From: Candidatus Saccharibacteria bacterium RIFCSPHIGHO2_12_FULL_44_22
GTDB lineage: Bacteria; Patescibacteriota; Saccharimonadia; Saccharimonadales; Saccharimonadaceae
Length of the DNA stretch: 55,123 nt
NCBI GenBank assembly: GCA_001790515.1
Contig: MGCS01000014.1
Location: 1 to 55,123, forward strand
Reading direction: 5' to 3'
In this document: one piece after another, positions 10,481 to 37,712 of the stretch
Layout: every line of letters begins with the position of its first letter
Numbering within the stretch: the first letter of the stretch is position 1
Program-made: the position numbers and the translations under genes
Notes under the pieces: model-generated
What the model saw: only the letters and a program-made list of their open reading frames with translations
Databases searched by the model: none
What the model was told of the DNA's origin: nothing

Positions 10481-10482
10481 AG

Positions 10483-12376: not shown

Positions 12377-12439
12377 TGCAAGGTACAAGGTACCGCCGAA
12401 CCGATGGTAAGTCTAGGTGTAATAAGATGTAAAAAAGGT

Positions 12440-15735: not shown

Positions 15736-16382
15736 TGGATTTGCCAAACAGCACTAACTTCAACCGTTTCGTACCAAAAGAAAAGTTTTATAGTAAAACA
15801 TCGATTAATTCCAAGATTCGACAATCCTTTACTAATGAAATCGAACGCATTACATGGATAAATAAAATCTCGCCTAAAACTCTTAACATAACATCTGGTG
15901 AATACGGGGAGCTACAGGTATTCGAGATTTCCTTAAAAACTGAAGATATTAGTAATGCATTGTTAAAGCATATCGACACATTCATTCCGTACCCGATTCT
16001 TTTTATCCTAAAAAAGCCAGGCGCTGTTAAAGCGGCAATATCATTCAAAGAACCTAATATGAAAAACGAGAATCTGATGAAGGTAGATAGCTACTACGAT
16101 ACTGGCTGGAAGCAATCACTTCAACTCGAGCTGAAAGGCCGTTCAGTTGATGAGATATACAAGAACTATCTATATCAAATAGCTCCTGGGCTTAAAGCTG
16201 TTGGCCAAGCAAATACCAAGGCAGCTATCGAAATAAGCAAAGAGCATCAAGCCATAACTAAAAAAATCGAAGGGCTGCGGCGGATGATGGCAAATGAGCC
16301 GTCTATTGCCAAGCGACAGGAGCTTGCTCGCGAGCGGTATCAACTAGAGCAGTACTTAGAAAATTTACAGGGGAATACGTAG
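15735..16382 (+). CDS. DUF4391 domain protein of the restriction locus
   Basis: A 215-residue protein resembling DUF4391: an alpha/beta core with PYPILFILKK near residue 80, and a C-terminal coiled-coil-like helix (about 150-215) rich in Lys, Glu and Arg. Its GTG start overlaps the helicase stop (TAG/GTG share one G). DUF4391 has no assigned reaction, but it recurs between such helicases and type III methyltransferases, so it is probably a structural or targeting subunit of the same complex. A TATAAT at 16383-16388, right after its stop, may give the methyltransferase gene its own promoter. Confidence 0.75.
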   Translation: MDLPNSTNFNRFVPKEKFYSKTSINSKIRQSFTNEIERITWINKISPKTLNITSGEYGELQVFEISLKTEDISNALLKHIDTFIPYPILFILKKPGAVKAAISFKEPNMKNENLMKVDSYYDTGWKQSLQLELKGRSVDEIYKNYLYQIAPGLKAVGQANTKAAIEISKEHQAITKKIEGLRRMMANEPSIAKRQELARERYQLEQYLENLQGNT

Positions 16383-16434: not shown

Positions 16435-18225
16435 ATGGACGAAAACCAAATTGAAAAAATTGATCTGAACAAAATTGACTGGCGTGGCAGCAGGGAATTT
16501 TTTGAAAGCCTTGGCGAGGCGCTCGACCGTATAGACGATAAAGACGAGAAGTATGACTTTACCTGGGTCGGCAAACGTAAAGCCATTATCGAGGCGGGTG
16601 CTCCGATCAACAAGACTTTTCGTCCAGATGTAGAAGCCAGCAAAAACTGGGATACTACAGAGAATTTATTTATCGAGGGGGATAATCTCGACGCACTGAA
16701 GCTATTGCAAGAATCTTACCTTGGCAAGGTGAAGATGATATATATCGATCCTCCATACAACACCGGTAAAGACTTCGTATACCACGACAACTTCAAAGCT
16801 GATGTCGAGGAATATGACGAAGCAACAGAATATAAGGATGAAGCAGGCAACATCCAGTTCAAAAAGAATGAAAAGAGTAATGGTCGCTATCATAGCGACT
16901 GGCTCAGCATGATGTACCCACGCTTGAAGCTTGCACGGAATCTACTAACTGATGACGGCGCAATTTTTGTAAGCATTGATTATCATGAGCATGCTAACCT
17001 CCGTAAATTATTGGATGAGGTGTTTGGAGAAGACAATTTTCAGTGCGATTTTGTATGGCTACGAAAGACATCTCCTAAAGGTGTGCCCCCCGTCAATATG
17101 GCAGTAAATAGTCAAGAACATGTTTTATGCTATTCTCGCTCCGATAAATTTAAGTTCTTGGGCGTACCTCGATCTATGGACGGCTTTTCTAACCCCGACA
17201 ATGACCCGAGGGGCATTTGGCGAAACACCAATATTAAGAGCACCGTTAAGGATAAATCAAAAGCATTTACTATTACGGATCCATCTACAAGCAATACGTT
17301 TACTGACGCCTGGGCATTTAGTGAATCTAGTCTTAGCGAAATGATTGAAAAAGGTCAAATTATTTTTCCACGCACTCCCAGCGGTCAGGTGCGCGCAAAA
17401 GAGTACTATCATGAATTCAAAAACTCAAACACCCCGTTAATAACCTTTCTGGATAAATATGACGGACAAACCGCGAGCGATCACCTTACACGTTTAATGG
17501 GAGGAAAGTATTTTCAGAACCCTAAAAATGTACAGCTTATTAAGACCTTAGTCTCATATCTTACGACCGGGGAAGACATAGTTTTAGACTTTTTCTCAGG
17601 ATCGGGCACTACGGCTGAAGCTGTTCAGCGGCTTAGTTCAGAAGATGAGACAAAAAGAAAATGGATCATGGTTCAACTACCAGAAACAACAGAAGAAAAC
17701 TCTGACGCTTACAAGGCTGGTTTTGCTACAATTCCAGAAATCTCTCGCGAACGGATTCGTCGTTCAGGAGATAAAATTGCATCCGAGCATCCAGAAGCTA
17801 AGGTAGATTATGGATTTCGTGCTCTAACGATTGCGGATACTAATTACAAAGAGGTGTATCGTGCTGCTGGCGAACTTCAGCAATCAGCCCTGCTCGATGT
17901 TGTTGACAATGTAAAAGAGGATCGTTCAGACATCGATCTCTTGTACGGAGTATTAACTCAATCTGCACTAGAGTTAAATCGTCCAATTGAAAAACGTGAG
18001 ATTGATGGAAGCGACGTTTATCTATATGACCACTTTGGCGAAGTGTCAGGGCTCATTGGCTGCTTCTCGGAGCAAGTATCCGAAGAGACTATTAAAGAAA
18101 TTGCTAAACTCAAGCCTCTGACTGCCGTATTCCGCGACAGCTCGTTTTCTGACAGTCAGGCGAAGGTGAACCTCTCAGAACATTTCCGTGTTCTTAGCCC
18201 AGAGACTAAGGTGAAGGTTATTTAG
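16435..18225 (+). CDS. Type III-like site-specific DNA methyltransferase (Mod)
   Basis: A 596-residue N6-adenine-type methyltransferase of the beta class, in which the catalytic motif precedes the SAM-binding motif. D105-P-P-Y108-NTG is motif IV, and VLDFFSGSGTTAEAV near residue 385 is motif I. The long central region should hold the target recognition domain. Translation begins at a clear Shine-Dalgarno sequence, GAGGGG (16425-16430), in contrast to the many leaderless genes. It protects host DNA by methylating one strand of the recognition site and also supplies sequence specificity to the restriction complex. The Res gene begins 5 bases after its stop. Confidence 0.93.
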   Translation: MDENQIEKIDLNKIDWRGSREFFESLGEALDRIDDKDEKYDFTWVGKRKAIIEAGAPINKTFRPDVEASKNWDTTENLFIEGDNLDALKLLQESYLGKVKMIYIDPPYNTGKDFVYHDNFKADVEEYDEATEYKDEAGNIQFKKNEKSNGRYHSDWLSMMYPRLKLARNLLTDDGAIFVSIDYHEHANLRKLLDEVFGEDNFQCDFVWLRKTSPKGVPPVNMAVNSQEHVLCYSRSDKFKFLGVPRSMDGFSNPDNDPRGIWRNTNIKSTVKDKSKAFTITDPSTSNTFTDAWAFSESSLSEMIEKGQIIFPRTPSGQVRAKEYYHEFKNSNTPLITFLDKYDGQTASDHLTRLMGGKYFQNPKNVQLIKTLVSYLTTGEDIVLDFFSGSGTTAEAVQRLSSEDETKRKWIMVQLPETTEENSDAYKAGFATIPEISRERIRRSGDKIASEHPEAKVDYGFRALTIADTNYKEVYRAAGELQQSALLDVVDNVKEDRSDIDLLYGVLTQSALELNRPIEKREIDGSDVYLYDHFGEVSGLIGCFSEQVSEETIKEIAKLKPLTAVFRDSSFSDSQAKVNLSEHFRVLSPETKVKVI

Positions 18226-18230
18226 TAACA

Positions 18231-21200
18231 ATGAAGCTTCGTTTTAAACATCAAAAATTCCAAGAAGATGCGACCAATGCAATTTGTGACGTCTTTTCAG
18301 GGCAACCAAATGAAACGCGTAAGTTTCTAGTAGATCAAGGTGAAAGCAGTAATATGACCGCTTCGCTGCTTGAGCGCACTGGATGGGCGAATCCCGAAAT
18401 CCACCTACGCGAGCAGGACCTTCTAAAAAACCTCCGCGATGTACAGAAGGCGAATGGCATCGTACCAAATAGCAATGTAGAGACTCTCACAAGCAAAGTT
18501 GAGTGGGGTGACGGCCGCAAGCAAAACGTTACTAGACCTGTTTTCACCATCGAAATGGAAACTGGTACCGGTAAGACCTATACCTACATCAAGACCATGT
18601 ATGAGATGAATGCCCGCTATGGATGGAGCAAGTTCATTATCGTAGTGCCAAGCATTGCTATCCGCGAAGGTGTAGCCAAGTCTTTCCAGATTACCGCCGA
18701 TCACTTCAAAGAAGAATACGGCAAAGCCTGCCGATACTTCATATATAATTCGACGCGGCTTAATGAGCTAGAACAGTTCGCTGACGATCCTGGGATTAAT
18801 GTGATGATTATTAACAGCCAGGCATTTAATGCCTCGGGTAAAGACGCTCGCCGTATTTACATGAAGCTAGATAGTTTTCGCTCACGACGCCCAATCGACG
18901 TTATCGCATCCGTAAACCCTATCGTCATTGTCGATGAGCCGCAGAGCGTGATTGGAGTGACAGGCGGCAAGAACGTCACTCGCGATAGCTTGGGTAAGTT
19001 TAATCCGCTCTTCTACGTAAACTACTCAGCTACGCATCGCGAGAACTTTAATATGGTGTACCGCCTGGACGCAGTTGACGCGTATCAGAAACAGCTTGTT
19101 AAGAAGATTACCGTTAAGGGAATATCAATCCACGGAACAACCGCGACGAATGGCTATCTATATCTTCAGCGCATCAATGTCTACCCCAATAAGAGCCCAT
19201 CGGCAACAGTTGTGATCGAACACAATACAAAGTCTGGTTCGGGCCTGGGCAAAAAGGTTAAAACATTCGTACATGGCGATAATATCTATGATCATTCTGG
19301 CGAAATAGAGGCATATCGTGACGGCTATACAATCGCCGACATCAATGCCCGCGAGGGATATATCGAATTTACGAATGGCCTGCAAATTCAATTAGGCCAA
19401 GTGATCGGTGACAGCAGCGAAGAAGATATTCGTCGCATACAAATCCGCGAGACGATAATGAGCCACCTCGAAAAGGAGCGTGAACTATTTAAGAAGGGTA
19501 TCAAGGTCCTCTCGCTATTCTTTATTGATGAAGTAGCGAAATATAAGTATTATGACGAATCTGGCGAGCAAAAGGGTATTCATGCTCAGGTCTTTGAAGA
19601 AGAATATAAGAATGCCATTGATTTGTTCTTTAGTCAGTTACCATTTGATGAAGATACGGATTATCGCACTTTCCTTGAACGCGATGAGCCACACCGGATT
19701 CATGCTGGATACTTCTCGGTAGACAAAAAAGGACGGGCAGTTGATAGTGAAATCAAGCGAGGCGAAAGTGAATCGGCCGATGTCAACGCATATGACCTCA
19801 TCATGAAAAACAAGGAGCGACTACTCAGTGCAGACGAGCCTGTCCGCTTTATCTTCAGCCACTCGGCGCTCCGTGAAGGTTGGGACAATCCGAATGTTTT
19901 CCAGATATGTACGCTGCGTATGAGTAGTGGTGACATAAAGAAACGTCAAGAGATTGGTCGAGGACTGCGCTTGAGTGTAAACAAAGACGGCGAACGCATG
20001 GATGCCGAAGTGCTCGGAACTCATAGCGTACATGACGTAAACTCATTGACCGTAATCGCTAATGAAAGCTATGAAGATTTCGCCAGGGCGCTGCAGGATG
20101 AATTCTATGAAGTCATCAGGAATCGTCCAAAAGAGGTTGCACCGTCTCTTTTCGAAGGCCAGGTATGGTCGGACAGTGCTGGTAATGAATTGGAAGTGGA
20201 CAATAGTAAGGCCGCGGATATTTTCGTAGCGCTCAAAATGGCAGGTCTTGTAAAGGAGGGACAATTAACAGATGAATATCACGATCTTTCGGTCGAGCTC
20301 CGTACTGAAAAAGTCAGCGAAGTACTAGGTCGTATAGATGAATCACTAACGCCGTACACAGATAACGTACTTCAGCTTGTTGAGTCTGTATACAATCCTA
20401 AGGTCAATCCTATAGTCTCTGATGCACGTAATAAAGCAACGCTTAATCTTGATCATGAAAAGTTTGCAAGTAAACAGTTTAAGGAGTTGTGGGAGCGGAT
20501 CAACAAAAAAACCTATTACACAGTTTCGTTTGATGAGAGCAAGCTCATTGACTCATGCGTCGGTGCGCTTAACCGCAATCTACGCGTATCTCAGACTCTC
20601 GTTACTATTACTGAAGGTTATCTGGACTCCACGAAGCAAAATAATCCTGAGATGAAGAAGCTCGTTGGTAAGCAGGTAGCACTCGAAGAAGTGGCGGCAA
20701 AGAATGTTACTTTCGACCTCATCGGGGAGATCGCTGAGCCAACTAGACTGACGCGGAAGACAGTCGCTACTGTACTGCAGAAGATTGAGCCTGCCGTGTT
20801 CAAGCTGTTCTCAGTCAACCCTGAGGAATTCATACGCGAAGCAGTGAAATTGATAGACGAGCAAAAAGCTTCGACTATCATTGAGCACATTACATACGAT
20901 ACGCTCGATGAAACGTGGAACGCAGAAGAGATATTTGTAGACACTACGATAGGCGGCGAGTATGGTAAGAACGTAGCTGACGCCAAGAAGCATTTGTTTG
21001 ATAAATTACGCTATGACTCTAGTGTAGAGAAACAGCTGGGTGAAGACCTCGACACTGCCGATACGGTTGAGATGTACGTGAAGCTTCCGAGCGGTTTCTA
21101 TATCAATACACCGATGGGTAAGTACAACCCCGACTGGGCTATCGCATTCAAGGAAGGTTCAGTCAAACACATCTACTTTGTAGCTGAGACAAAAGGCGAT

Positions 21201-21341
21201 ACTAGTGACTTGCAGCTCCGTGAAGTAGAACGTGCGAAGATCGAATGTGCTCGACGACACTTTTCTAAGATCAGCGACGACACCGTCAAATATAGTGCCG
21301 TCGCATCGTACTCCGAGCTGCTAAGTAAAGTTAACGCCTAG
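18231..21341 (+). CDS. Type III restriction endonuclease subunit (Res)
   Basis: A 1036-residue SF2 helicase-nuclease. Walker A is E-T-G-T-G-K115-T, the DEAD-like box is VDEPQS near residue 235, and the motif VI region contains EIGRGLRLS near 580. Near the C-terminus N-P-D-W (about 965) and E-T-K-G (about 985) form a PD-(D/E)xK nuclease site. It should cut DNA when it meets unmethylated sites, powered by ATP. It is the last gene of the helicase-DUF4391-Mod-Res operon, and its stop overlaps the convergent terminase stop by four bases. All motifs look intact, so the system is probably functional. Confidence 0.92.
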   Translation: MKLRFKHQKFQEDATNAICDVFSGQPNETRKFLVDQGESSNMTASLLERTGWANPEIHLREQDLLKNLRDVQKANGIVPNSNVETLTSKVEWGDGRKQNVTRPVFTIEMETGTGKTYTYIKTMYEMNARYGWSKFIIVVPSIAIREGVAKSFQITADHFKEEYGKACRYFIYNSTRLNELEQFADDPGINVMIINSQAFNASGKDARRIYMKLDSFRSRRPIDVIASVNPIVIVDEPQSVIGVTGGKNVTRDSLGKFNPLFYVNYSATHRENFNMVYRLDAVDAYQKQLVKKITVKGISIHGTTATNGYLYLQRINVYPNKSPSATVVIEHNTKSGSGLGKKVKTFVHGDNIYDHSGEIEAYRDGYTIADINAREGYIEFTNGLQIQLGQVIGDSSEEDIRRIQIRETIMSHLEKERELFKKGIKVLSLFFIDEVAKYKYYDESGEQKGIHAQVFEEEYKNAIDLFFSQLPFDEDTDYRTFLERDEPHRIHAGYFSVDKKGRAVDSEIKRGESESADVNAYDLIMKNKERLLSADEPVRFIFSHSALREGWDNPNVFQICTLRMSSGDIKKRQEIGRGLRLSVNKDGERMDAEVLGTHSVHDVNSLTVIANESYEDFARALQDEFYEVIRNRPKEVAPSLFEGQVWSDSAGNELEVDNSKAADIFVALKMAGLVKEGQLTDEYHDLSVELRTEKVSEVLGRIDESLTPYTDNVLQLVESVYNPKVNPIVSDARNKATLNLDHEKFASKQFKELWERINKKTYYTVSFDESKLIDSCVGALNRNLRVSQTLVTITEGYLDSTKQNNPEMKKLVGKQVALEEVAAKNVTFDLIGEIAEPTRLTRKTVATVLQKIEPAVFKLFSVNPEEFIREAVKLIDEQKASTIIEHITYDTLDETWNAEEIFVDTTIGGEYGKNVADAKKHLFDKLRYDSSVEKQLGEDLDTADTVEMYVKLPSGFYINTPMGKYNPDWAIAFKEGSVKHIYFVAETKGDTSDLQLREVERAKIECARRHFSKISDDTVKYSAVASYSELLSKVNA

Positions 21342-22894
21342 TCCCATTCACCCGATATCGCTTCGTTCCAATCGTCGAGGCGATTATTCCAGTAGTCACG
21401 ACCACGCCGACGTGAATTTCTTGCGGTTCTTGAGCGAGTATCACTCCACAGGTTATGGGTTCCGATAACCATGCCTGGTGTATTGAGATCCGTTCTCACA
21501 GCCTCAATCACCGCAACTGTAAGTGCATCAACCAGGTCGTCATGTTTCTCTATGCCAAATCCAACGAGCTGTGATAGCAACTCTTTGCTGCCATGTTTCG
21601 GAAACAGAATAACGCCTCGTTGGATTTTATCGGCAATCATATTCAGGCGAGTTCGCTTATCCTGATTGGGGTGTACGCCGGTCGCATCGATGACGTCTTT
21701 ACTCAGCGCCTGTACTAATGCCTCCTGATAAGCTGTCGTCTCCACGAAGAATTTAGGATTGTGCAGGCTCACATTGAGCTCACGAACTAAGTCGATCGTC
21801 GTCGGGAAATTCATTCGCTTATTGATCGGATTTGGAAGTACATAGATTTGCATCTTGTCTCCATGACCTCGAATATCGAGCGTCACCATAGCCGTACAAT
21901 CAGCCGAGTCTTTTTCGGATATGGCTAAGTCAACACCTACTACAAGTGTCCGGCTTTGGCCTCGAAGCAGATCAGGCAGCTTGTCATATTGGTGAATCAT
22001 GTCTGGAAAGATGATCTGATCATCATCCGGCACGAGGTGCAGCCGATATTCCCGCTCAAACCGCACACGGTCCGCAATGCGCCGCTCTAGCATCAAGAGT
22101 GAGTCTTTATTCGGAAAGCGTTCCGGCCAGAGCGACACCCCGTCACGTTCGATCGGATATTCACGGTATGCTCCGTTGCGCTCGCCGCTATCCATGCCAG
22201 CCCTGAGTCGCATGAGTAGAGAGTCTTCGTGGAGGAGGTTGCCAACCGTGATGAACTTCGTGTTATCACTACCAAGCGGTAAGAGCTCACCAGTAAACCA
22301 GGCGAAGTTGCGATCACGACCTTCGCGGGTCTTAACAGTTCGACTGTCTTCTACGTCATCAGCGATGATGAGATCTGGGCGATGCGGTCCATGGCGAAGT
22401 CCACGCACACCTTGCTCTCGCGATACCGCAATTATCCGCACGCCGAGACGGGGAAGCTTAATTGCACTCACGCCCGTTTCGTTTTCTTCGTAGTCATATG
22501 GCCAGAAATCCTTACGAATCAAGTCGTTAGTCTCAAGTTCCTGCACAATGTTTGCCAGGTGCTGCTGTGCCTGATTCTGCGTCTGACTGACGATGACGAT
22601 GTACTTCTTTTGCATCTCACCAATTGCTGCCCATAGCGGCAGGGCAGTCGTGATGATCGTCGACTTGCCGCTTTCACGAAATGCCACGATCACCAGCTGC
22701 TCGATATCCGGATTCGTTACGTCTGACATCATCTGCTTTTGAAACTCAGCCGTCGGGTATTTAATGTAATGCCCCATATAAAGGTGGAAGAACCAGTAAA
22801 AGCTGTTCCTCGCGATCGATAGTCGAACCGCGCGCTGGCTACGGACCTTTTCCCATTCATATTCTGTTAGTGCGTCATAGTTTACGTTACTCAT
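21338..22894 (-). CDS. Phage-type terminase large subunit
   Basis: A 518-residue protein with both terminase halves. The ATPase half has FRESGKST (Walker A, residues 72-79) and PDLIIADDVED (Walker B, near 173-183). The RNase-H-like nuclease half has VVGVDLAISEKDSADCT near 310-326 and ends with KHDDLVDALTVAV, carrying the final metal-binding aspartates. Such motors pump DNA into procapsids. It is the last of three minus-strand genes with overlapping starts and stops. No portal, capsid or tail gene is in the window, so this is an isolated packaging module as seen in phage satellites or decayed prophages. Confidence 0.88.
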   Translation of the reverse strand: MSNVNYDALTEYEWEKVRSQRAVRLSIARNSFYWFFHLYMGHYIKYPTAEFQKQMMSDVTNPDIEQLVIVAFRESGKSTIITTALPLWAAIGEMQKKYIVIVSQTQNQAQQHLANIVQELETNDLIRKDFWPYDYEENETGVSAIKLPRLGVRIIAVSREQGVRGLRHGPHRPDLIIADDVEDSRTVKTREGRDRNFAWFTGELLPLGSDNTKFITVGNLLHEDSLLMRLRAGMDSGERNGAYREYPIERDGVSLWPERFPNKDSLLMLERRIADRVRFEREYRLHLVPDDDQIIFPDMIHQYDKLPDLLRGQSRTLVVGVDLAISEKDSADCTAMVTLDIRGHGDKMQIYVLPNPINKRMNFPTTIDLVRELNVSLHNPKFFVETTAYQEALVQALSKDVIDATGVHPNQDKRTRLNMIADKIQRGVILFPKHGSKELLSQLVGFGIEKHDDLVDALTVAVIEAVRTDLNTPGMVIGTHNLWSDTRSRTARNSRRRGRDYWNNRLDDWNEAISGEWD

Positions 22895-23303
22895 TGTCTT
22901 GCTCCTTTATTGCTTCATTAGGTAGTAGGCCGACCATGGCAAGTGCTCGCGATACAAGCTGCTCTTGTTCATCGGTCAGTGCTTCGGTTTCATGTTTGAT
23001 ACGGCCATCGAGTCTGATTCGGTTCTCGTACACTGGGTGGTGGTGCTTGAGCCAAAAAGTAATGGCCGACAGATTCTTTTCTTTGATGGAAGTGATTAGC
23101 TGGCTCTCGGCTAGATCATTAATCTTGCCAGCGCTCTGCTCAATTGCTTCATCGCAAGCTTCGGCGAATACATCGTCATCCTTGCGCCACCGGTAGTAGG
23201 TGGCGCGGGGCAGTGAGATAGCGCGGCAAGCCGCTTCGACGATCGGCATTTTATGCAGCTGCTCGATGAGCTTCTTTTTATCCTTATCTTGATTCCGGCT
23301 CAT
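22887..23303 (-). CDS. Terminase small subunit-like HTH protein
   Basis: A 138-residue protein with an N-terminal helix-turn-helix region, PIVEAACRAISLPRATYYRW (about residues 20-39), of the kind seen in phBC6A51-like small-terminase proteins. A helical, charged C-terminus follows. It overlaps the large-subunit gene by 8 bases and the ParB-methyltransferase gene by 4, so the three genes are one translation-coupled operon. By position and fold it should recognise the packaging site and hand DNA to the large subunit. The small-subunit call is a little less certain than the large one. Confidence 0.75.
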   Translation of the reverse strand: MSRNQDKDKKKLIEQLHKMPIVEAACRAISLPRATYYRWRKDDDVFAEACDEAIEQSAGKINDLAESQLITSIKEKNLSAITFWLKHHHPVYENRIRLDGRIKHETEALTDEQEQLVSRALAMVGLLPNEAIKEQDNE

Positions 23304-24637
23304 GATAGCTTCTCCCGCTTCAAGCCGGTCGCTTTTTCCCAGCGCTTCATAGCAACCTCGGCGTACACCGGACTTTTTTCCATGATGTAGCAGCGGCGCT
23401 TCAGCTTGGTGGACGCAATGAGAGTGGATCCTGAACCGCAGAACGGCTCAACCACTAAATCGCCGCGCTTTGTCAGCACCTTGATATACGGAATCAGAAT
23501 CTCGAGCGGCTTCGTCCCAAAGATGATGCCTTGGCCGGAATGCTTTTCATCACTCGCCTGAAACTCAATGAAGTCAGTCGGCTGGTATTTCTTACCGCCT
23601 GCGTAACCCTCCCATTGGGGTTTGCCACTGATGGCATAGAGCGCTGTTTCGTATTCTTCCTGTAATCCATCGGGTTCGGTTCCATGGTTATATGGCACAG
23701 TGCCGGAGCCACCGACCATGGCGATATCGTGCTTCGAAAAGAACTTGTACTTCGCGCTGAAGCCCTGATGTCTGTTCGGTAAATGCCAGACGATCATGTT
23801 TTTGACTTTCCAGTACTTTTCCATCTCAGCCCAAATGACACGCAGATTCTTCCAGTTCTCGTACACGATGATAGAATAGTCAGGCTTTGCATAACGAGCC
23901 ACGTTTGCCATCCATAGTTCCGTGAAGTTATCTGGCAGCACATCGGTTTCCAGGTAGCGCCGATTTTTCTTCGCACCAAAACCGGTTGTCGGTTTACCAC
24001 CACGCTTGGCGTGAAGGTAGTCCAAGATGTACGGAGGATCCGTCATGCACATGTCCGCCTGTTCGCCGTTCATGAGCTTGTCGAAGTCCTCGGCGATGGT
24101 GCTATCGCCAACCATCAGGCGTGAGTCACCAAGTTGGTAGACATCGCCCTTCTTTGCCTCAACCTTTTTGATATCCAATTTCTTCAGCTCCTTATCAAGG
24201 TCGAAGTTTTCGGTCTCCTCGATATCGATGTCGAAAATGAGATCCATCTCCTCACTACTAAAGCCGACATCAGACAGTAGCGTTTCGTCGAATTCGGATA
24301 GCATTTCCCAGTCCCAGTCACCGAGCGCCTTATTGAGGCGCAGATTTAGCTCCTTCTCTTTGGCCTCGTCCGGAATATCCAGATACACAACTGGTACTTC
24401 TTTGAGTCCGAGTTCTTTCGCAACCTTGAGGCGGAAATGCCCACCTATCACAATGCCCTTACGCTCGGCCGCACCGTTGACGAGCAGTGGGTCGACCAGA
24501 CCAAACTGCTGAATACTTTCCGTCAGCTGCTTGGTCGTTTCCTCGTTCCAGGTACGTGGATTATACGTGCTTGGCTTAAGTTCACCGACTTTGACCATGA
24601 CGATCTTAGGATTGATGGTTGAATTAGAAGCGGTCAT
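23300..24637 (-). CDS. ParB-like / DNA methyltransferase fusion protein
   Basis: A 445-residue two-domain protein of a type common in phages. Residues 8-110 are ParB/Srx-like: LKPSTYNPRTWNEE, then GIVIGGHFRLKVAKELG, the nuclease-fold GG-H-R signature. Residues 170-440 form an N4/N6 methyltransferase with TDPPYILDY (motif IV) near 200 and VEPFCGSGSTLIAS (motif I) near 407. It heads the packaging operon. A very strong Shine-Dalgarno sequence, AAGGAGGTGA, lies 4 bases before the ATG. It may mark or protect element DNA before packaging. The methylated sequence is unknown. Confidence 0.88.
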   Translation of the reverse strand: MTASNSTINPKIVMVKVGELKPSTYNPRTWNEETTKQLTESIQQFGLVDPLLVNGAAERKGIVIGGHFRLKVAKELGLKEVPVVYLDIPDEAKEKELNLRLNKALGDWDWEMLSEFDETLLSDVGFSSEEMDLIFDIDIEETENFDLDKELKKLDIKKVEAKKGDVYQLGDSRLMVGDSTIAEDFDKLMNGEQADMCMTDPPYILDYLHAKRGGKPTTGFGAKKNRRYLETDVLPDNFTELWMANVARYAKPDYSIIVYENWKNLRVIWAEMEKYWKVKNMIVWHLPNRHQGFSAKYKFFSKHDIAMVGGSGTVPYNHGTEPDGLQEEYETALYAISGKPQWEGYAGGKKYQPTDFIEFQASDEKHSGQGIIFGTKPLEILIPYIKVLTKRGDLVVEPFCGSGSTLIASTKLKRRCYIMEKSPVYAEVAMKRWEKATGLKREKLS

Positions 24638-24990
24638 AGCTTCACCTCCTTGTAGTTATTGATAACCACAAACCCTTTGAGGTGAAGTTTTGACCAAATA
24701 AAAAAGCACCTCAGAAGAATTAATCACAATTGGGCCGTTTCCTACGACTGCGTTACGCAGTGTGAAATACACCTCTTGTCGTATCTATATAGATAAGATT
24801 ATGACCAATTCCGCGGGGGCGCTCGTAAATCGAGCTTCGGTTAACTCCTCAGAACTGTGTAGTTGAATTGTTAATGTGTACGCATGGTACATTTTTATCG
24901 TAGCTCGGTCCGTCTGGGCTGTCAAGCATAAAAACGCTATATGTAGTAGTACTTCCGTTATTTACTCTACTAGCGTATAATAGTACGCAT
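24638..24990. promoter_or_regulatory. Divergent control region between packaging operon and LexA-CBASS operon
   Basis: This 353-base gap is rich in symmetry. ACTGCG-TTA-CGCAGT lies at 24747-24761, a perfect 14-bp palindrome TATCTATATAGATA at 24782-24795, and TGTAC-N5-GTACA at 24877-24891. TACTA-N8-TAGTA spans the lexA -10 at 24968-24985. The string GTACGCAT occurs at 24878 and again at 24983, just before the lexA start. The lexA -10, TATAAT (24976-24981), ends 9 bases before its ATG. The last two symmetric sites are the best operator candidates for the LexA-like repressor itself. A promoter for the minus-strand operon must lie here too, but I could not pick one. Confidence 0.55.
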
Positions 24991-25602
24991 ATGGAAATCG
25001 AGGGATTAACACCAAAACAAAAAACCGTGTTTGCGGCAGTGCGAGAGTTGCAAACACTAAACGGCCGTACACCGACTCTGGACGAGGTGCGACGGCACCT
25101 TAACTATGCAACCGTCAGTTCGGTGCAGCGTCATATGGATGCCTTGAAGCGCAAAGGCTACATTCAAAGTGACAAGCACCAAGGCAGATCAATGCGTCTA
25201 TCTCACCAGCATACGGTGAGTATTCCGCTCGTTGGTAATGTTGCATGTGGCTCACCACTTCTTGCCGAAGAGAATGTTGAGGCACACGTCGCGTACGATG
25301 CCGATCGGCTCAAAGGAAATCCTAGCGACTACTTTTTTCTGCGAGCTGTTGGCGACAGCATGGATAAGGCCGGCATCGATGACGGTGACTTAGTACTTGT
25401 GCGGAAATCTGATACTGCGGAAAAAGGTAAGCGAGTCGTGGCGTTAGTAGGAGACGATGCTACCGTTAAAAAACTCATGAACGAAAATGGTCATTGGATA
25501 CTGAGGCCCGAATCGAAGAACGCAAAACATAAGGACCTGATAATGGTCGATGAGTTTTCCGTGCAAGGTATCGTACACGACGTGATTAAGGCCAGGTCCT
25601 GA
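24991..25602 (+). CDS. lexA: LexA-family self-cleaving repressor
   Basis: A 203-residue full-length LexA-type protein. The winged helix covers residues 5-70 (TPKQKTVFAAVRE, PTLDEVRRHLNY, MDALKRKGYIQS). The linker contains V84-A-C86-G87, so the self-cleavage bond is Cys-Gly, as in UmuD, rather than LexA's usual Ala-Gly. The peptidase dyad is S123 (GDSM) and K160 (ATVKKL). DNA damage would trigger RecA-assisted autocleavage and derepression. Its stop is one base from the CD-NTase start, making one operon, and it is divergent from the packaging operon as a prophage repressor would be. It may be an element-borne repressor rather than the housekeeping LexA. Confidence 0.9.
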   Translation: MEIEGLTPKQKTVFAAVRELQTLNGRTPTLDEVRRHLNYATVSSVQRHMDALKRKGYIQSDKHQGRSMRLSHQHTVSIPLVGNVACGSPLLAEENVEAHVAYDADRLKGNPSDYFFLRAVGDSMDKAGIDDGDLVLVRKSDTAEKGKRVVALVGDDATVKKLMNENGHWILRPESKNAKHKDLIMVDEFSVQGIVHDVIKARS

Positions 25603-25603: not shown

Positions 25604-26896
25604 ATGGATGAACATTTCGACGTACTACTTTCGCGGCTAAAGCTAACGACAAAACAAGCTGAAGATGCCAAAACAAAATACAGACGGGTTGCCAAAACTT
25701 TGCATAACGCATACTACAGTAATGAGTACGATGGCAGCACTAAACTTCTGATTGGATCTTATGGTAAGCGCACGAACATACGCCCGCCAGCTGATATAGA
25801 TCTCCTATTCAAAATACCCGCCGAAACATACGACCGCTACTCAAATTATGAAGGTAATGGTCAAGCGGCGCTCTTGCAAGAAATACGCCAAAAGCTAAGC
25901 GAGAAGTATACGACGACAGAGAAGATTTCTGCGTGGGGTAAGGTTGTGCTCGTTAAGTTTTCTGAAGGATCTCATGATGTTGAACTGCTGCCGGCTTTTG
26001 AAGTCGGTGGCGTTTTTATGATTCCGAATTCCGAAAACAGCGGCAGCTGGGAGTCGTTCGATGCACGAGCGGATATGAAAGCTATCAGTGACTCTGATAC
26101 AGCAAGCGGCGGGGCTGCGCGACCGCTCATAAAAATGATAAAACGCTGGAGAAACCATACACCTTCTATGAACCTGAAATCGTATGAGATAGAAATGCTT
26201 GTCGTAGAGTTTTTAGAAAATAACTCTGTAGCCGGCGACTCGTGGTCCGAAATTGTTTCTTCATTCTTCGGCTGGCTGAACAATAAGTCGACAAGTTTTT
26301 CGTCGTATGTTTCATCTGCCAACAACAGGGCAATAAAAGCACGAGAGTATGAGCTCAACGGTAAGTTGAAAGAAGCATGCGATGAGTGGCGAAAAATATT
26401 TGGAAACAGATTCCCAGTATATGATGTGAATCTTTCAAAAATTAAGGAGCTTACCAGGAACTATCCTAGCTCCGACGAAGAGTTTATTGAGAACATATTC
26501 GACATGCGGCCTGACCCCAATTTGACGCTCAAAATAACTGTTGAAGTAGCGCCACCGAAAACCGGTGGTTGGCAGCAAATAATTCGGACTTTAGAACATT
26601 TTATAGAAAAATTTGGCGGGCTTCCAAAAGCATCTTCTCTACAGTTCAGAGCAGTTACTAATTATGAAGGCGACGGACGGTACTATTGGAAGGTCCGTAA
26701 TTTTGGCACCGAAGCACAGACATCCAATGACTTGAGGGGTAAGATAAAAGAGGGTGCTCCTGACGGAACATGGAGTGAAAACACGAAGTACTTCGGAACA
26801 CACTATATCGAATGCTATTTGATTCAAGGTGAACGATGTGTGGCATTTAATAGGCGATACGTCCCAATAAATACAGAGGTGAATGATGAGCAATAA
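25604..26896 (+). CDS. CD-NTase (SMODS nucleotidyltransferase) with AGS-C sensor, CBASS
   Basis: A 430-residue cGAS/DncV-like nucleotidyltransferase. The active-site loop G51-S-Y-G is followed by the metal pair D64-I-D66, with the third acidic residue at D125 (HDVELLP). The helical lobe follows. Residues 310-425 match the AGS-C sensor domain found after SMODS enzymes: WKVRNFGTEA, LRGKI, HYIECYLI, CVAFNRR. On phage infection such enzymes make a cyclic nucleotide that activates a membrane or nuclease effector. The effector here is the SLATT protein of the next gene, which overlaps by 14 bases. It starts one base after the LexA stop, so repressor cleavage should raise its expression. Confidence 0.86.
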   Translation: MDEHFDVLLSRLKLTTKQAEDAKTKYRRVAKTLHNAYYSNEYDGSTKLLIGSYGKRTNIRPPADIDLLFKIPAETYDRYSNYEGNGQAALLQEIRQKLSEKYTTTEKISAWGKVVLVKFSEGSHDVELLPAFEVGGVFMIPNSENSGSWESFDARADMKAISDSDTASGGAARPLIKMIKRWRNHTPSMNLKSYEIEMLVVEFLENNSVAGDSWSEIVSSFFGWLNNKSTSFSSYVSSANNRAIKAREYELNGKLKEACDEWRKIFGNRFPVYDVNLSKIKELTRNYPSSDEEFIENIFDMRPDPNLTLKITVEVAPPKTGGWQQIIRTLEHFIEKFGGLPKASSLQFRAVTNYEGDGRYYWKVRNFGTEAQTSNDLRGKIKEGAPDGTWSENTKYFGTHYIECYLIQGERCVAFNRRYVPINTEVNDEQ

Positions 26897-27449
26897 AATC
26901 CAACTGGCAACATTACGCCAAAACTTTGCACAGTGTGTCTTTACGCATCAAGTTCAGGAAGCTGCGGCGAATCGCAACTTCAAGACTTCCGATAAATATT
27001 CCAAAATAAACATCGGGCTAGTGGCTGGGGTACTCGTAATGCTCGTACTCCAATCGGTGTACCAAGATGCTGGGTGGTATACCGCACTTGGGTCGGGGCT
27101 AGCGATTGGTGAAATTCTTTTCCTCATAGTTCAGCAAACGTTCAACGTCGACCAAAAAGCAGTTCTTCATAAAAATGCAGCATTGCAGTATATGACCCTA
27201 CGTGATCAATACCCGTCTCTTATATCTGATGTCTCCTCTGGTCTTCTGGCTGCGGATGAGTACAAATCTCGTCGGGACCACCTATCAACACAATATGAGG
27301 TAGTTTCTAAATTATCTCCACAAACGGATTACACTGACTATCTACGAGCTCAAAAAAGCCTTGGATTAACCGGTGACGATGAGCAGTACACTTGGTCGGA
27401 CACTGAGATCAACCGATTTTTACCGAAAGAACTTCACTCTAATAAGTAA
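26883..27449 (+). CDS. SLATT-domain two-helix membrane effector of CBASS
   Basis: A 188-residue protein with two membrane helices (about residues 43-62 and 67-88) flanked by helical cytoplasmic segments. This is the layout of SLATT proteins, the SMODS- and SLOG-associated 2TM effectors predicted to form pores and kill the infected cell. ATG at 26886 is an alternative start; GAGGTG just upstream can serve either. It overlaps the CD-NTase gene, as effector genes usually do. No second regulator, Cap2/Cap3 or TRIP13/HORMA gene follows, so this is a minimal type I arrangement. The family call rests on topology and context more than on fixed residues. Confidence 0.75.
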   Translation: MMSNKIQLATLRQNFAQCVFTHQVQEAAANRNFKTSDKYSKINIGLVAGVLVMLVLQSVYQDAGWYTALGSGLAIGEILFLIVQQTFNVDQKAVLHKNAALQYMTLRDQYPSLISDVSSGLLAADEYKSRRDHLSTQYEVVSKLSPQTDYTDYLRAQKSLGLTGDDEQYTWSDTEINRFLPKELHSNK

Positions 27450-27454: not shown

Positions 27455-28066
27455 ATGATGTCGAAGATTACCTGTCCGAACTGCAGCTCCCAAAACACTT
27501 GCCAGATTTTGTACGGCTTGGTTGGTCTAGACGACAAGCTGAATGAAGACCTTGGAGCAGGGAGGGTGCATCTTGGCGGTTGCGTTATGTCGGGCGAAGA
27601 TCCAGATCGGCACTGCAACGAATGCGAAATCGACTTTGACACTAAAGCGCCGAACATCTACTTGGATATTGACGGTGCACTTCTTGCTAATGACCTTACG
27701 CCAGCGAACCATGCGAAAGAATTCCTGAAAAAAGTGCTGGAAGAGTACCCGTATACTACCTATTGGTTGACGACGCATTGCCAGGGCGATGCTAATGTTC
27801 CCATTCAGCATATTGGTCATCTTTTCGATGCAGAAACAGTTGAGCTGATGAAGAAAATAAAACCTACGACGTGGGACATGGCAAAGACTCGAGCAATCGA
27901 TTTCTCAAAGCCGTTCTTGTGGTTCGATGACGATATGTTTTATGAAGAAAAGCAGACACTACTTGAACACGGTGTGCTAGATAATCTCATTATGGTTGAT
28001 CTATCAAAAGACCCTGACCAGCTCGGTAGGTTCATTACGAGCTTTCCCCTGCCAGTCAATACTTAA
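27455..28066 (+). CDS. Zinc-ribbon / HAD-like fusion protein
   Basis: A 203-residue protein with two parts. Residues 1-62 form a zinc ribbon, C7-P-N-C10, LGGC43 and C54-N-E-C57, with the ILYG and LGGC marks of a small-protein family. Residues 66-200 look HAD-like: IYLDIDGALL with D71-x-D73 as nucleophile and acid/base, WLTTHCQGD near 94, and DDD near 152 as the metal-binding motif. It may be a metal-dependent phosphatase; the substrate is unknown. The same zinc ribbon stands alone, frameshifted, at 10753-11041. It begins 5 bases after the SLATT gene, so it may be a third member of the LexA-CBASS transcript. Confidence 0.7.
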   Translation: MMSKITCPNCSSQNTCQILYGLVGLDDKLNEDLGAGRVHLGGCVMSGEDPDRHCNECEIDFDTKAPNIYLDIDGALLANDLTPANHAKEFLKKVLEEYPYTTYWLTTHCQGDANVPIQHIGHLFDAETVELMKKIKPTTWDMAKTRAIDFSKPFLWFDDDMFYEEKQTLLEHGVLDNLIMVDLSKDPDQLGRFITSFPLPVNT

Positions 28067-28722
28067 ACGTAGTGCGCTTGGTTGAATAGGTGTGAGTGAG
28101 GAGCTTGCATAAATAACTTCAGAGCATCGCCTGAAAAGTGATGGTCAACACCGTCGAGTATAAGAGTACGCATCCTGGCTGATTCATCGACTTTGGATAG
28201 TTCTTCCGCATCATTTACGCTGGGGTCTTCGCTTCCAAATATAACTGTAATCTTGCTGCCACCGAATTCAGATAAGCCGTATTTTATCTTGTCGAATCCA
28301 AGCTTTGTAGCAGGGTTGATGAGCAGTATCCGCGTAATCTCTGGATATTCCCATGCGATTTGCGACACCGTAGCTGCACCTGCGGAGTGAGCCATAATAC
28401 GAACTTCAATGTCTTTGTGGCCAGTTATTTCTTCAGTATGTTTCATGATGTAATCGAGCGCTCGCCGTATGTTTGACTCCCAATGATATGAAGTAATGAA
28501 CGGATTAGCTATTCGAACGATTGCAGCACCGTGCTGTTCTTGGACGTTTTCCGCAATCTTCACATATTTGTTTTCATATCCGTCTACCGATCCGTCAACA
28601 CCCGGCACAGTAAGCAAAACGACCTTACTATCGGCAGGATGAATAGCAATATCGAGCGAGCAGTCAATCGTGACGCCGTTCATGGTTTCTTGCCATTCTA
28701 TTTTTGAGTATTTGCCAGACAT
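28063..28722 (-). CDS. Alpha/beta-hydrolase
   Basis: A 219-residue protein with the nucleophile elbow A-H-S113-A-G (GxSxG with Ala in the first place). An acidic residue D166 in GSEDPSV and a histidine pair H194-H195 in GVDHHF complete a plausible triad. VLLTVPGVDGSVDGY gives the oxyanion loop near residue 40. It is a small soluble esterase-like enzyme; the substrate cannot be predicted. TACAAT at 28737-28732 lies 9 bases before the ATG, a leaderless promoter divergent from that of the FtsK-like gene. It overlaps the zinc-ribbon/HAD gene end by 4 bases, tail to tail. Confidence 0.85.
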   Translation of the reverse strand: MSGKYSKIEWQETMNGVTIDCSLDIAIHPADSKVVLLTVPGVDGSVDGYENKYVKIAENVQEQHGAAIVRIANPFITSYHWESNIRRALDYIMKHTEEITGHKDIEVRIMAHSAGAATVSQIAWEYPEITRILLINPATKLGFDKIKYGLSEFGGSKITVIFGSEDPSVNDAEELSKVDESARMRTLILDGVDHHFSGDALKLFMQAPHSHLFNQAHYV

Positions 28723-28731
28723 CTGTAATCA

Positions 28732-28762
28732 ATTGTAACTTAGGTGTTGCGTAAGCTACAAT
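28732..28762. promoter_or_regulatory. Divergent leaderless promoters, hydrolase and FtsK-like genes
   Basis: On the minus strand TACAAT at 28737-28732 ends 9 bases before the hydrolase ATG. On the plus strand TACAAT at 28757-28762 ends 7 bases before ATG 28770. This second box contains the ATG at 28761, so 28770 is the better start for the FtsK-like gene. Confidence 0.55.
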
Positions 28763-28769
28763 GGAACCA

Positions 28770-30539
28770 ATGAGTGATAATGATGAAGCGAAGTTCAGGG
28801 AATTGTTTGAGAACGGCCTATTAACCGCACAGCCGCCAGGGGTTTGGTTGCCACAAAAGTCAAAAGATGGGGAGTGGAAAAATCACTTTATCGGTTCGAC
28901 TGGTGTGCCTATGCATTTGAGCGGTGGCTGGATGATAAACGAGAGTACGGGCTCGTTAAAACAGGTAGACATCGATGACATTGATTTTTCACCCACAAAC
29001 ATATCGGACTATATAACCGGAGTATCTACAGAAGGCGCGCAGTCACAAGACCCCGGTGAGATCGATTCATCGGCCTCAACGGGTAAAACCAAACTAGTAT
29101 GGAAGCTTCCTTCGTTAGCTCTACTAGGCGAGCCGGTAGCTGGTCGCGCGGATGCTGGTGACGTTCAGCAGATTGCAAATAATATTATTGAGACTATTTC
29201 AGAATTTGGAATTAACGTTGAAGTTATTGAGGCAAATGTCGCACATAAAGTGACGCAATATGTACTGCAGCTTCCAGAAAACGTTCAAGCAGAAAAAATA
29301 ATGCAGCTTGAGTCAAATATAGCTTTGAATTTGCAAGCAATTTCAATCAGAATCACAAAAACAGCCTCTGATAATGGCTTTGTTGCCATCGAAGTTCCGA
29401 ATGTGAAGGCTGCGGCCGTGCCACTTGCCAGTATTTTTGATAGTACGGAATGGCGAGATTCAACGAGCGCGCTGAGCATTGCTGTTGGTAAAGATCTATA
29501 CGGAAAGCCAGTTATTGCTGACCTATCCAAAATTGGACACTTACTATTTGCAGGGCAGACTGGATCTGGTAAATCAGTCATGAGCAATGCGATACTTGCC
29601 AGTCTATTATTCCGAAACAATCCAGATGAACTAAAGTTGATGCTTGTTGACCCGAAACAGGTTGAACTGGCGCCTTATCAAGATCTACCTCATCTACTGA
29701 TGCCAGTAATTGAAAGGCCAGAGCAATGGTCTGATGCTTTGGATTGGTTGAGCAAAGAGGTTGATCGACGGGAAAATATCCTTGCCCACTACCATGTAAG
29801 TTCGATAGATGAGCTTAACCGCACAGCCACTGAGCTTCTTCCTCGCGTAGTCGTTCTGACGGATGAACTCTCAGATCTCATGATGGTCGATGGAAGAAAA
29901 GTAGAGGAAGTGGTGAGCAAAATATCGACTAAAGCAAAGAATTTTGGAATTCACCTCATCTTTTCAACTAGTCGCCCAAGCGTTGACGTATTTACGGACA
30001 TATTAAAAGCCAGCATGCCAACGCATTGGTCATTTGTGACGGCCAGTAAATTAGATAGCATGACCACGCTAGATGAGGCTGGTGCGGAGAAACTCCTGGG
30101 TCAAGGCGACCTTCTTTTTAGGGAGGATCCCAACAGCTCACTGCAACGAGTTCAAGCGGCCTATATCAGTGATGACGAAGTTGAATCGTTGACAAGTTTC
30201 TGGTCACGTCAATCGATGCAGAAAGGTAATGATGTGAAAGACACTGATAACGAAGTCGTTAAGAGTGATCTTATGGAAGACTTCGAATATTTTGTTACTG
30301 CTCAGGTCGGGCATCACTACAAAAAAGGCTTTCGCTGGAAGGCAAAGCTGCGTTGGCAACTAGTAAAAGTGTGGCAGTCGCGGATTACGAATATGGGTGT
30401 GCCGGGACTTGTGAAGGAAAAACTTGGCGAAGAAGAAGCTCAAAGACTATACGAAGATATTGCGGATAAAATTATGAACGACCCCGAACTGCTTGAAGAA
30501 GCGGTCAAAACCGCTCATGAATCAAATCCGTTTTCATAG
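28770..30539 (+). CDS. Soluble FtsK/SpoIIIE-type DNA translocase
   Basis: About 589 residues from ATG 28770, chosen because TACAAT (28757-28762) overlaps the ATG at 28761. There are no membrane helices. A degenerate N-terminal domain is followed by an FtsK beta/alpha region (about 115-225) and the motor: GQTGSGKS with K268, VDPKQVEL near 293, VVLTDELSDLMM (Walker B) near 370, and FSTSRPSVDVFT near 405. The fold matches FtsK closely, but a wing-type gamma domain is not obvious at the C-terminus. Cytosolic FtsK-like pumps serve chromosome partition, conjugation or plasmid-like elements; here, between island genes, an element-transfer role is possible. Confidence 0.85.
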   Translation: MSDNDEAKFRELFENGLLTAQPPGVWLPQKSKDGEWKNHFIGSTGVPMHLSGGWMINESTGSLKQVDIDDIDFSPTNISDYITGVSTEGAQSQDPGEIDSSASTGKTKLVWKLPSLALLGEPVAGRADAGDVQQIANNIIETISEFGINVEVIEANVAHKVTQYVLQLPENVQAEKIMQLESNIALNLQAISIRITKTASDNGFVAIEVPNVKAAAVPLASIFDSTEWRDSTSALSIAVGKDLYGKPVIADLSKIGHLLFAGQTGSGKSVMSNAILASLLFRNNPDELKLMLVDPKQVELAPYQDLPHLLMPVIERPEQWSDALDWLSKEVDRRENILAHYHVSSIDELNRTATELLPRVVVLTDELSDLMMVDGRKVEEVVSKISTKAKNFGIHLIFSTSRPSVDVFTDILKASMPTHWSFVTASKLDSMTTLDEAGAEKLLGQGDLLFREDPNSSLQRVQAAYISDDEVESLTSFWSRQSMQKGNDVKDTDNEVVKSDLMEDFEYFVTAQVGHHYKKGFRWKAKLRWQLVKVWQSRITNMGVPGLVKEKLGEEEAQRLYEDIADKIMNDPELLEEAVKTAHESNPFS

Positions 30540-30593: not shown

Positions 30594-31697
30594 ATGTACA
30601 CGCATCTCAAAGATCGCCATTATTACGAAGATCTCTACGATAGGCTCACCATCGAAGCTGCTCGTCGTGGCATGGTTCATTACGATAAATTCCTCACTGA
30701 ATTTGAGAGTAAGCTCCCGAAATGCGAGAAGCTCGATAAGCCGGGCAATGCTTTCGCTGTAAACGTGTTTTACATGCAGACCGTTGGCAATGAACTAATC
30801 CACTGCTACGAAAAACGCGAATCAACTATCGGCGAGTGGATGGCTCGTGACGAATCTTTGGACGAGCGGATAGCGAATGCTCGTCTCTTAGAAGAGCCAT
30901 ATTGCCATCACTGCGGCAAGCAAGGCCTGCGAATTACCGACAAATCACTGATGCATCGAGGCGAAAACTACGAAATCGATGACCCGAAAGAAGTATTATT
31001 CATGCTTCAATGTCCTCACTGCGAGAAGAACAGTGCGTTTTGGGAAGACGGTACCGCCTGGGAGGTAAAGCCGACACTCTGTCCGAAATGTAACTCGGAT
31101 GTTACACATAAAACAAGCAAGACCAAAAAAGCGATTACCATCACCTACACATGTACGTCATGTGATCACTGCTTCAAGGACAGAATGGATCTATCTACCA
31201 AAGAAGAGGAGCCTGATCCTCATTTTGATGAAGACCGTATCCACTTCTGCCTGGTCGACAAAGAATTCCGCGATCGCCTATTTACTATGAAGCGCGACTT
31301 CGAAGGGATGGCTCAGCTGGGCAAAGAGATGCAAGAAAAGCGTGACAACAAGCATATCTATGATGCCGTCAAAGAGATCAAAACGCCAAAGATCGCCGAG
31401 CTTATCCCGCTACTGTCCGAACCGCTCGAAAAGGAAGGGTATATTGAATTCCATCTCGACAAACCAGAATTGGGGCGAGATGTATATGTCGGGTTCAGCT
31501 GCCTAGACAGTAAGTCTGATCGAAAAGACTACGACAGCAGAAAGACATTGAAAAAGCTAGTCGATAGCGCACTCGAGGACACCAATTGGCGCCTCATGAG
31601 CGACGGCATCTCATATCGGCTCGGATACTTGAATGGGCGAGTAAAGGCCTATGAAAGCATAGACGATAGAAGGCGTCTTGCTAAGTGGAGGGGTTAG
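30594..31697 (+). CDS. Multi-zinc-ribbon protein, function unknown
   Basis: A 367-residue soluble protein. A helical N-terminus is followed by four CxxC pairs, C104/C107, C140/C143, C163/C166 and C187/C190, which can pair into two zinc ribbons (the last is extended by C193). The charged C-terminus (about 210-365) carries no recognised motif. Such tandem ribbons are common in nucleic-acid-binding and ubiquitin-like processing proteins, but nothing here singles out a function. It is transcribed alone from a leaderless-type -10, and its 3' end overlaps the convergent ArsR gene by 17 bases. Confidence 0.72.
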   Translation: MYTHLKDRHYYEDLYDRLTIEAARRGMVHYDKFLTEFESKLPKCEKLDKPGNAFAVNVFYMQTVGNELIHCYEKRESTIGEWMARDESLDERIANARLLEEPYCHHCGKQGLRITDKSLMHRGENYEIDDPKEVLFMLQCPHCEKNSAFWEDGTAWEVKPTLCPKCNSDVTHKTSKTKKAITITYTCTSCDHCFKDRMDLSTKEEEPDPHFDEDRIHFCLVDKEFRDRLFTMKRDFEGMAQLGKEMQEKRDNKHIYDAVKEIKTPKIAELIPLLSEPLEKEGYIEFHLDKPELGRDVYVGFSCLDSKSDRKDYDSRKTLKKLVDSALEDTNWRLMSDGISYRLGYLNGRVKAYESIDDRRRLAKWRG

Positions 31698-32004: not shown

Positions 32005-32016
32005 TTTTATTCCCGC

Positions 32017-34287: not shown

Positions 34288-34354
34288 TATCTACTCTCCG
34301 ATGCGTTTATTTTTTTGGACTTATATTCCTTATAATACTATACTTGGGTGTGAA

Positions 34355-35977: not shown

Positions 35978-36130
35978 TCAGGATAGAAACGCATAGACCA
36001 TAATGGAAGACGAAAATGTGAAGACGCTTAGATTCTAAAAATTTAGTCTATTAGATGCAAACTGAAAATATGCCTTCTCGTGTTTCATTTGTCTCGCTTT
36101 ACCCCCGTTAAAAAGTTCGTGACCAGTATG

Positions 36131-36140: not shown

Positions 36141-36155
36141 ATGAATTTACATTAC

Positions 36156-37709: not shown

Positions 37710-37712
37710 ATT

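Follow-up and report, generated by a model that had tools for sequence, protein, structure and literature searches.

A terminase-encoding defence island without detected capsid genes at the tRNA-Asn gene of a Saccharibacteria genome, and related loci across Patescibacteria

Results

Location and ends of the element

The window analysed here is a stretch of 55,123 nucleotides (contig MGCS01000014.1, assembly GCA_001790515.1) from Candidatus Saccharibacteria bacterium RIFCSPHIGHO2_12_FULL_44_22. A 25.7-kb element (10481-36138) is inserted in it at the 3' end of a tRNA-Asn gene, beside its own large serine recombinase, and carries genes for a ParB-domain DNA methyltransferase (ParB-MTase), a terminase small subunit (TerS) and a terminase large subunit (TerL) (Table 1). 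The open reading frames of MTase, TerS and TerL overlap end to end (21338-24637, minus strand), and thus form a single coupled operon. An earlier note on this DNA had described the three genes as coupled and as divergent from a LexA-type repressor; all of them were found where it had placed them, and the region it dealt with is just the control and packaging portion of the 25.7-kb element.

Table 1. Features of the element and of the adjoining DNA (window coordinates)
Feature	Position	Strand	Evidence or remark
tRNA-Asn(GTT), integration target	10406-10480	plus	ARAGORN; last 7 bases GGAGCCA = left core copy
Left end arm (GCCAAGCAGAGAAAA..AGACCcAGTTC..AACTTCTCTCCTTGGTCAG)	10481-10560	plus	directly 3' of tRNA GGAGCCA
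Large serine recombinase (element integrase)	11096-12388	minus	Resolvase, Recombinase and Zn-ribbon domains; phrog_95 integrase, 7.7e-62
SNF2/HKD-type helicase and DUF4391 protein	12487-16382	plus	PADLOC C3a139, 9.8e-120; PF14335
Type III restriction-modification (Mod, Res)	16435-21341	plus	PADLOC MTase_III, 8e-196; REase_III, 7e-278
TerL	21338-22894	minus	phrog_38, E=1.7e-74; Walker A/B and nuclease residues intact
TerS (helix-turn-helix, HTH)	22887-23303	minus	phrog_4044, E=1.7e-8; PF13022; several further TerS families
ParB-domain DNA N6/N4-methyltransferase	23300-24637	minus	PF02195 and PF01555; phrog_498, E=3.7e-83
Divergent control region	24638-24990	no strand	between MTase and lexA
LexA-type repressor, S24 self-cleavage domain	24991-25602	plus	PF00717, 7e-25; PF01726, 8e-12
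CBASS CD-NTase (SMODS and AGS_C)	25604-26896	plus	51% homologue in sister element of G032
SLATT_4 two-transmembrane (2TM) CBASS effector	26883-27449	plus	PF18186, 8e-28; PADLOC 2TM effector, 3e-33
203-aa protein, HAD-like by eye alone	27455-28066	plus	no family match
Putative hydrolase (minus) and second FtsK/SpoIIIE-like translocase (plus)	28063-30539	minus, plus	host FtsK at G000:C2
Zinc-ribbon protein (ZnR)	30594-31697	plus	homologues in 13/97 loci
ArsR regulator and MMPL transporter (minus), 598-aa protein without assigned family (plus)	31681-35977	minus, plus	
Right end arm, TTTCATTTGTCTCGCTTTACCCCCGTTAAAAAG TTCGTGACCAGTATGGGGAGCCA	36085-36138	plus	core GGAGCCA at 36132-36138
Additional units stacked at this tRNA-Asn gene	36139-50522	no strand	ends near 47234, 48339, 50522

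Exact long repeats that could serve as attachment sites were not found in an initial search, and the ends emerged when the 3' end of the tRNA and the arm downstream of it were searched for with mismatches tolerated. About 70 bases of the left arm are kept in seven junctions from five genomes, after tRNA-Asn or a repeat resembling the tRNA 3' end. The right-arm pattern CATTTGTCTCG...TTCGTGACC(A/T)GTATGGGGAGCCA terminates the elements in G035, G074, G117 and L206 (our handles for genomes and loci; L206 is a Microsaccharimonas contig) as well as that in the window, where the arm differs from the L206 end by two mismatches; shuffling gave 0.2 chance matches per window even when seven mismatches were allowed. 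Beyond the right arm, G035, G117 and L206 have a hairpin-T sequence of the kind found after the unoccupied tRNA-Asn in L119 and L124. Since matching arms and a core repeat are present at both ends, the element is delimited as 10481-36138. It thus has, as a prophage would, an integrase (of the serine recombinase type) and paired attachment ends, both arms with GGAGCCA. Sister elements bounded on both sides were found in G035 (23.1 kb) and L206 (14.4 kb). The same tRNA-Asn borders elements in G035, G074, G105 and L206 and a second element of G032 (on G032:C5; L123, G032:C5:30000-49900), and the window recombinase is 76-89% identical to those of sister elements.

Two other candidates were rejected. 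The sequence CTAGACTTA upstream of the recombinase is kept across Saccharibacteria elements but lies away from their ends, and is probably a promoter or regulatory site rather than an attachment site. The FtsK gene at 28761 was considered as the right chromosomal flank; it is a second copy, and the core FtsK is located on contig C2 of the source genome.

Packaging genes and the search for structural genes

The earlier note had seen no portal, capsid or tail genes, and none of these families was found throughout the bounded element either, nor among the sampled genes of the neighbouring units. The source genome as a whole (1.23 Mb in 16 contigs, 99% complete) lacks both Phage_capsid (PF05065) and Phage_portal (PF04860). 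In 150 cargo proteins of related loci, no head or tail families were present among the 25 commonest of 144 PHROG families, beyond which rare matches are possible. A portal and capsid linked to the terminase, as in a prophage, were not found: at 74 of 94 loci the neighbour after TerL is a gene on the opposite strand (51) or the recombinase (23); in related phages, by contrast, portal and head genes come next.

The ratio of nonsynonymous to synonymous substitution rates (dN/dS) of TerL in close pairs (94-96% identity) was 0.014-0.029, an approximate range as dS is high, and 94-95 of 95 copies retain the Walker A lysine, the acidic residues of Walker B and all three acids of the nuclease. TerL is under strong purifying selection, with an estimated dN/dS of about 0.02. 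The complete packaging motor is maintained by selection, and inertia does not explain its presence. ParB-MTase identity between sister elements is about 80%. As a separate observation, TerL of the saccharibacterial elements (G117, G105, G074 and G035) is 41-56% identical to that of the window, versus 80-82% for ParB-MTase and 82% for the recombinase; the greater divergence of TerL could reflect adaptation to differing helper portals, or gene exchange.

Distribution across Patescibacteria

TerL homologues were found in 10 of 151 relatives and in 38 of 380 genomes from across the phylum; three of the 38 (G304, G344 and G358) are prophages, leaving 35 of the element type. Searching named genomes yielded 80 loci, almost all of them from Patescibacteria. 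Among 97 loci, TerL is present in 96, TerS in 94, ParB-MTase in 92 and the serine recombinase in 82; these loci were collected through TerL, whose count is therefore given by construction, some are near-duplicates of one another from different collections, and genes are lost from view at contig ends. The next commonest families are LexA (25), a P-type ATPase and a DUF4352/superinfection-exclusion-like membrane protein (15 each) and the zinc-ribbon protein (13). About 90 related loci across Patescibacteria, then, keep the core of MTase, TerS, TerL and serine recombinase with changing cargo. The earlier note had suggested looking for the trio with integrases in other Saccharibacteria, and it was found there and well beyond. 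A domesticated terminase conserved in place, which the note had named as the contrary outcome, does not agree with these counts: the terminase is patchy and travels with the serine recombinase among changing neighbours. In L123, ParB-MTase and a divergent TerS are present, and TerL was not recognised in the stretch read.

The exchangeable genes are mostly anti-phage, so that the idea of a defence cargo, put forward for the window, holds family-wide. In the window element the cargo includes the SNF2 helicase, type III restriction-modification (R-M) and CBASS, together with the genes at 27455-30539 and 31681-35977. Cargo consists of type I R-M and HSP20 in G035, of HsdM and GmrSD in L206, and of HATPase, Z1, DUF4420, AIPR, C5-methylase, Mrr-type nuclease, HSP20 and ClpB in G074; other loci have Cap15, ThsB, E2, 2TM effectors, defence-type reverse transcriptases and several R-M types. 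Across the family it spans type I, II and III restriction, the cyclic-oligonucleotide-based anti-phage signalling system (CBASS), Thoeris, GmrSD, AIPR/Z1 and reverse transcriptases. At 11 loci (including L136, L143 and L141:8082-9482), 12 reverse transcriptase genes lie beside a small protein that is Avd-like by eye, which suggests diversity-generating retroelements as cargo.

Related phages

In four Patescibacteria prophages (G293:C8, G304, G344 and G358), a TerL with 33-36% identity is followed by a portal of ~735 aa and an HK97 capsid. In a tree of 82 TerL sequences, those of the elements and of the Patescibacteria prophages group together in a single clade (99/99) that excludes SuMu-type phages; the prophage sequences sit inside or beside those of the elements on a long branch (82/76), so that either may have come first. 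In G293 a full prophage is accompanied by two capsid-less elements, and in G161 and G367 elements occur together with a portal/capsid prophage on another contig. A prophage with an HK97 portal was present in 3 of 35 element genomes and in 8 of 345 others (Fisher p=0.07, suggestive only).

A search for phages sharing the terminase, as the earlier note had proposed, yielded these prophages and, among the matches listed, no close isolated phage. TerL identity to isolated phages (INPHARED/IMG/VR) is at most 29% among the matches listed. Matches of at least 40% in IMG/VR looked like close phage relatives and were rejected as such, being the capsid-less islands themselves; contigs L211-L224 are elements of this kind catalogued as viral, apparently owing to TerL.

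Control region and CBASS genes

A 17-bp inverted repeat (24632-24648/24679-24695) covers the ribosome-binding site and start of ParB-MTase, which it pairs with a copy lying upstream, and could be a translational switch; its layout is partly matched in G117b. On the other side, the CD-NTase gene (25604) begins one base past the lexA stop and is followed by SLATT_4 (26883), and thus the CBASS genes do sit in the repressor operon, with which they had been proposed to be co-expressed. The CD-NTase (SMODS and AGS_C) adjoins a known effector (SLATT_4, 2TM), as in CBASS proper. The pair is the same as in type I-like CBASS with a 2TM effector; here it is ordinary cargo within the lexA operon. CD-NTase genes near LexA also occur in L140, L141 and L143, and coupling of the repressor with CBASS holds for the window element.

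The prophage-like switch claimed for this region is true of the window element but not of the family: a divergent LexA upstream of MTase is present in only 20 of the 71 loci with enough sequence, so that the repressor is optional and LexA was ruled out as a family-wide switch. The LexA gene at 24991-25602 encodes the sole S24 protein of the source genome. It was nevertheless rejected as the host SOS regulator, as it lies inside a mobile element and most relatives are without a close equivalent. A second, short LexA-HTH gene (6062-6472), with no S24 domain, adjoins penicillin-binding protein genes and tRNA-Asn; its chromosomal context is conserved in G035, G074 and G031, similar short genes are present in many relatives, and it is possibly a lineage-specific regulator.

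Discussion

A possible satellite with its own terminase

Our preferred explanation, to which we give a probability of roughly 0.6, is that the insertion at 10481-36138 is a member of a Patescibacteria-wide group of satellite-like integrative defence islands that encode their own terminase and borrow the procapsids of helper phages. On inactivation of the repressor (here LexA-type with a self-cleaving S24 domain, so that DNA damage or infection could be the trigger), the recombinase would excise the element. TerS would then recognise the element DNA; possible roles of the ParB-methyltransferase are to label the site where packaging begins or to keep the DNA protected. In phage P1, methylation of pac governs cutting, which is a precedent for methylation at a packaging start. 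TerL would dock on the portals of procapsids of an infecting or resident helper phage and fill them with element DNA, and the defence cargo would then shield the new host against other phages. Patescibacteria prophages with a related TerL are plausible capsid donors. Since resident prophages of the portal type are uncommon, helpers, if needed, would usually be infecting phages. The broader proposal, which we hold a little less firmly but still favour, is that these are phylum-wide mobile defence islands in which a core motor of MTase, TerS and TerL with a serine recombinase has long persisted without a capsid, that is, "bring-your-own-terminase" satellites placed between phage-inducible chromosomal islands (PICIs) and capsid-forming PICIs (cf-PICIs), possibly the main vehicle of anti-phage genes in these tiny genomes.

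Several points weigh against packaging in helper particles. A resident helper is usually absent (3 of 35), so that an infecting phage or a portal of another family would be needed. TerLs of the elements and of the prophages are distant (33-36% to the marker TerLs), which makes the fit to such a portal conjectural. No pac or cos site was identified in the element, and the family has no conserved gene dedicated to replication or to the control of capsid size. The ends of the element, its conserved motor and its exchangeable cargo are shown; excision, recognition by TerS and the filling of helper procapsids are inferred.

The main rival, which we consider unlikely, is that the operon is an anti-phage device: TerS and TerL, together with the MTase, would enter the procapsids of phages or combine into hybrid terminases, so that phage DNA is misdirected or cut, and the island would block packaging rather than be transmitted as a satellite. 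Nearly all other recognised cargo is anti-phage, satellites are known to hinder helper packaging via TerS or Rpp (PMC10690885, PMC6739421), and the ATPase and nuclease motifs of TerL are intact. However, the operon stays with the recombinase in 82 of 97 loci whereas defence genes come and go, and interference alone would not need a TerS-TerL-MTase set that resembles a full packaging start unit. Less likely still is processing of DNA for transfer by a different route, for instance natural competence or type IV secretion, with TerL cutting or moving element DNA without a capsid. This would suit the rarity of resident capsid prophages and the second FtsK-like translocase of the window element, and PMC10633639, PMC12206443 and PMC12102498 describe Saccharibacteria as genetically manipulable, with type IV pili, and conjugation-like type IV secretion systems in Patescibacteria. 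However, neither the scanned element genes nor the family tallies showed a relaxase or conjugation gene, the FtsK copy is not a family-wide feature, and TerL is of the packaging type and groups with the TerLs of full prophages.

Two further explanations concern the missing structural genes. They might be present but too divergent to be recognised, as several cargo genes have no family match and the PHROG tally covers the commonest 25 of 144 families; a capsid or portal would be shared, however, and no fifth family exceeds 25 of 97 loci, that one being LexA. Because no widely shared fifth gene is present in the 97 loci, a hidden capsid among the element genes is unlikely, and we regard this explanation as quite improbable. 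The element might also be a decaying prophage that was stripped of its structural genes and carries its packaging genes by inertia; the order MTase-TerS-TerL is that of a phage packaging start, and related prophages exist. This possibility is already contradicted by the same capsid-less layout at about 90 loci in many classes, by the dN/dS of about 0.02 with catalytic residues kept, and by the matched ends, and we consider it the least probable of all.

Comparison with known mobile elements

Satellites have been defined by functions or signals that favour their packaging in particles that a phage builds in whole or in part; the same review lists P4-like elements, PICI, cfPICI, PLE, PICMI, VEIMEs and tycheposons, and reads terminase genes as a hint of phage mobilisation (PMC11389934). 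Under this definition the element is a candidate satellite, with a complete and conserved terminase and no detected capsid. PICIs come with TerS or an adaptor (Rpp) but depend on the helper for TerL, cf-PICIs encode TerS, TerL, major capsid protein, protease, portal and connectors, and P4 relies on the helper terminase and cos sites (PMC10690885). P2/P4 hotspots hold satellite-type islands with exchangeable anti-phage systems (PMC9122126). Like PICIs, including the Staphylococcus aureus pathogenicity islands (SaPIs), the element is integrated, is repressor-controlled (in this member), has the packaging gene TerS and lacks tail genes, and it would use helper capsids if our model is right; it differs in its own intact TerL along with TerS, the ParB-MTase, the large serine recombinase and the Patescibacteria host. 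The tyrosine integrase and replication module typical of PICIs were not found, the recombinase being of the large serine type, and no replication gene was recognised among the scanned genes of the window element. It resembles cf-PICIs in encoding both TerS and TerL but has no detected capsid, protease, portal or connectors, and it resembles P4-like elements in its exchangeable anti-phage load but shows no P4 hallmark genes. Thus, TerS and TerL without a head fit neither PICI, cf-PICI nor P4; VEIMEs and tycheposons were not compared gene by gene. Patescibacteria prophages (G293:C8, G304, G358, G344) share the TerL clade and differ in having portal, HK97 capsid and head genes.

In the staphylococcal cassette chromosome (SCC), a serine recombinase mediates insertion at the 3' end of rlmH. 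The element is similar to SCC in its large serine recombinase, fixed target, short core repeat, tandem stacking and exchangeable cargo, but it targets tRNA-Asn rather than rlmH, has a terminase operon, and its recombinase did not test as a member of the ccr family.

We did not find a description of this family in the open-access full-text literature, a search whose coverage excludes most subscription papers and preprints. Of the papers on gene exchange and phages in Patescibacteria, one does not mention terminase (PMC12455944), and two others describe full phages and not a capsid-less element family (PMC13059738, PMC6509639).

Patescibacteria live mostly as uncultured epibionts, and the way in which they acquire anti-phage genes is poorly understood. 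If the islands do travel in borrowed particles, this would be a route of defence-gene transfer in the phylum and would predict helper phages; a complete terminase without a head would also fill a gap in the logic of satellites. Because of their TerL, some of the islands are filed as viruses in IMG/VR, where the closest TerL matches are contigs of this kind, and viral surveys are distorted accordingly. With defined ends, a recombinase and a single TerL gene, the idea is testable in cultivated Saccharibacteria.

Further units at the same site

The additional ends near 47234, 48339 and 50522 indicate that more units are stacked behind the window element; the last is followed by a hairpin and then a T run, resembling the native sequence downstream of the tRNA. 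The second unit (36085-47234, GC content about 0.39) has a broken serine recombinase (36085-36720 and 36808-37575) with 48% identity to that of L120, and a HerA/FtsK-like ATPase (40130-42124) with a weak match to the "terminase large subunit" family phrog_2666 (6.9e-14). Separate cargo islands that have no recombinase of their own were also seen in L123 (3866-7147) and L206 (18577-21204), placed between tRNA-Asn and the following element that shares the end arm. They carry P-type ATPase/ArsR and Clp-like genes, and look as if they had been mobilised in trans or left by earlier insertions.

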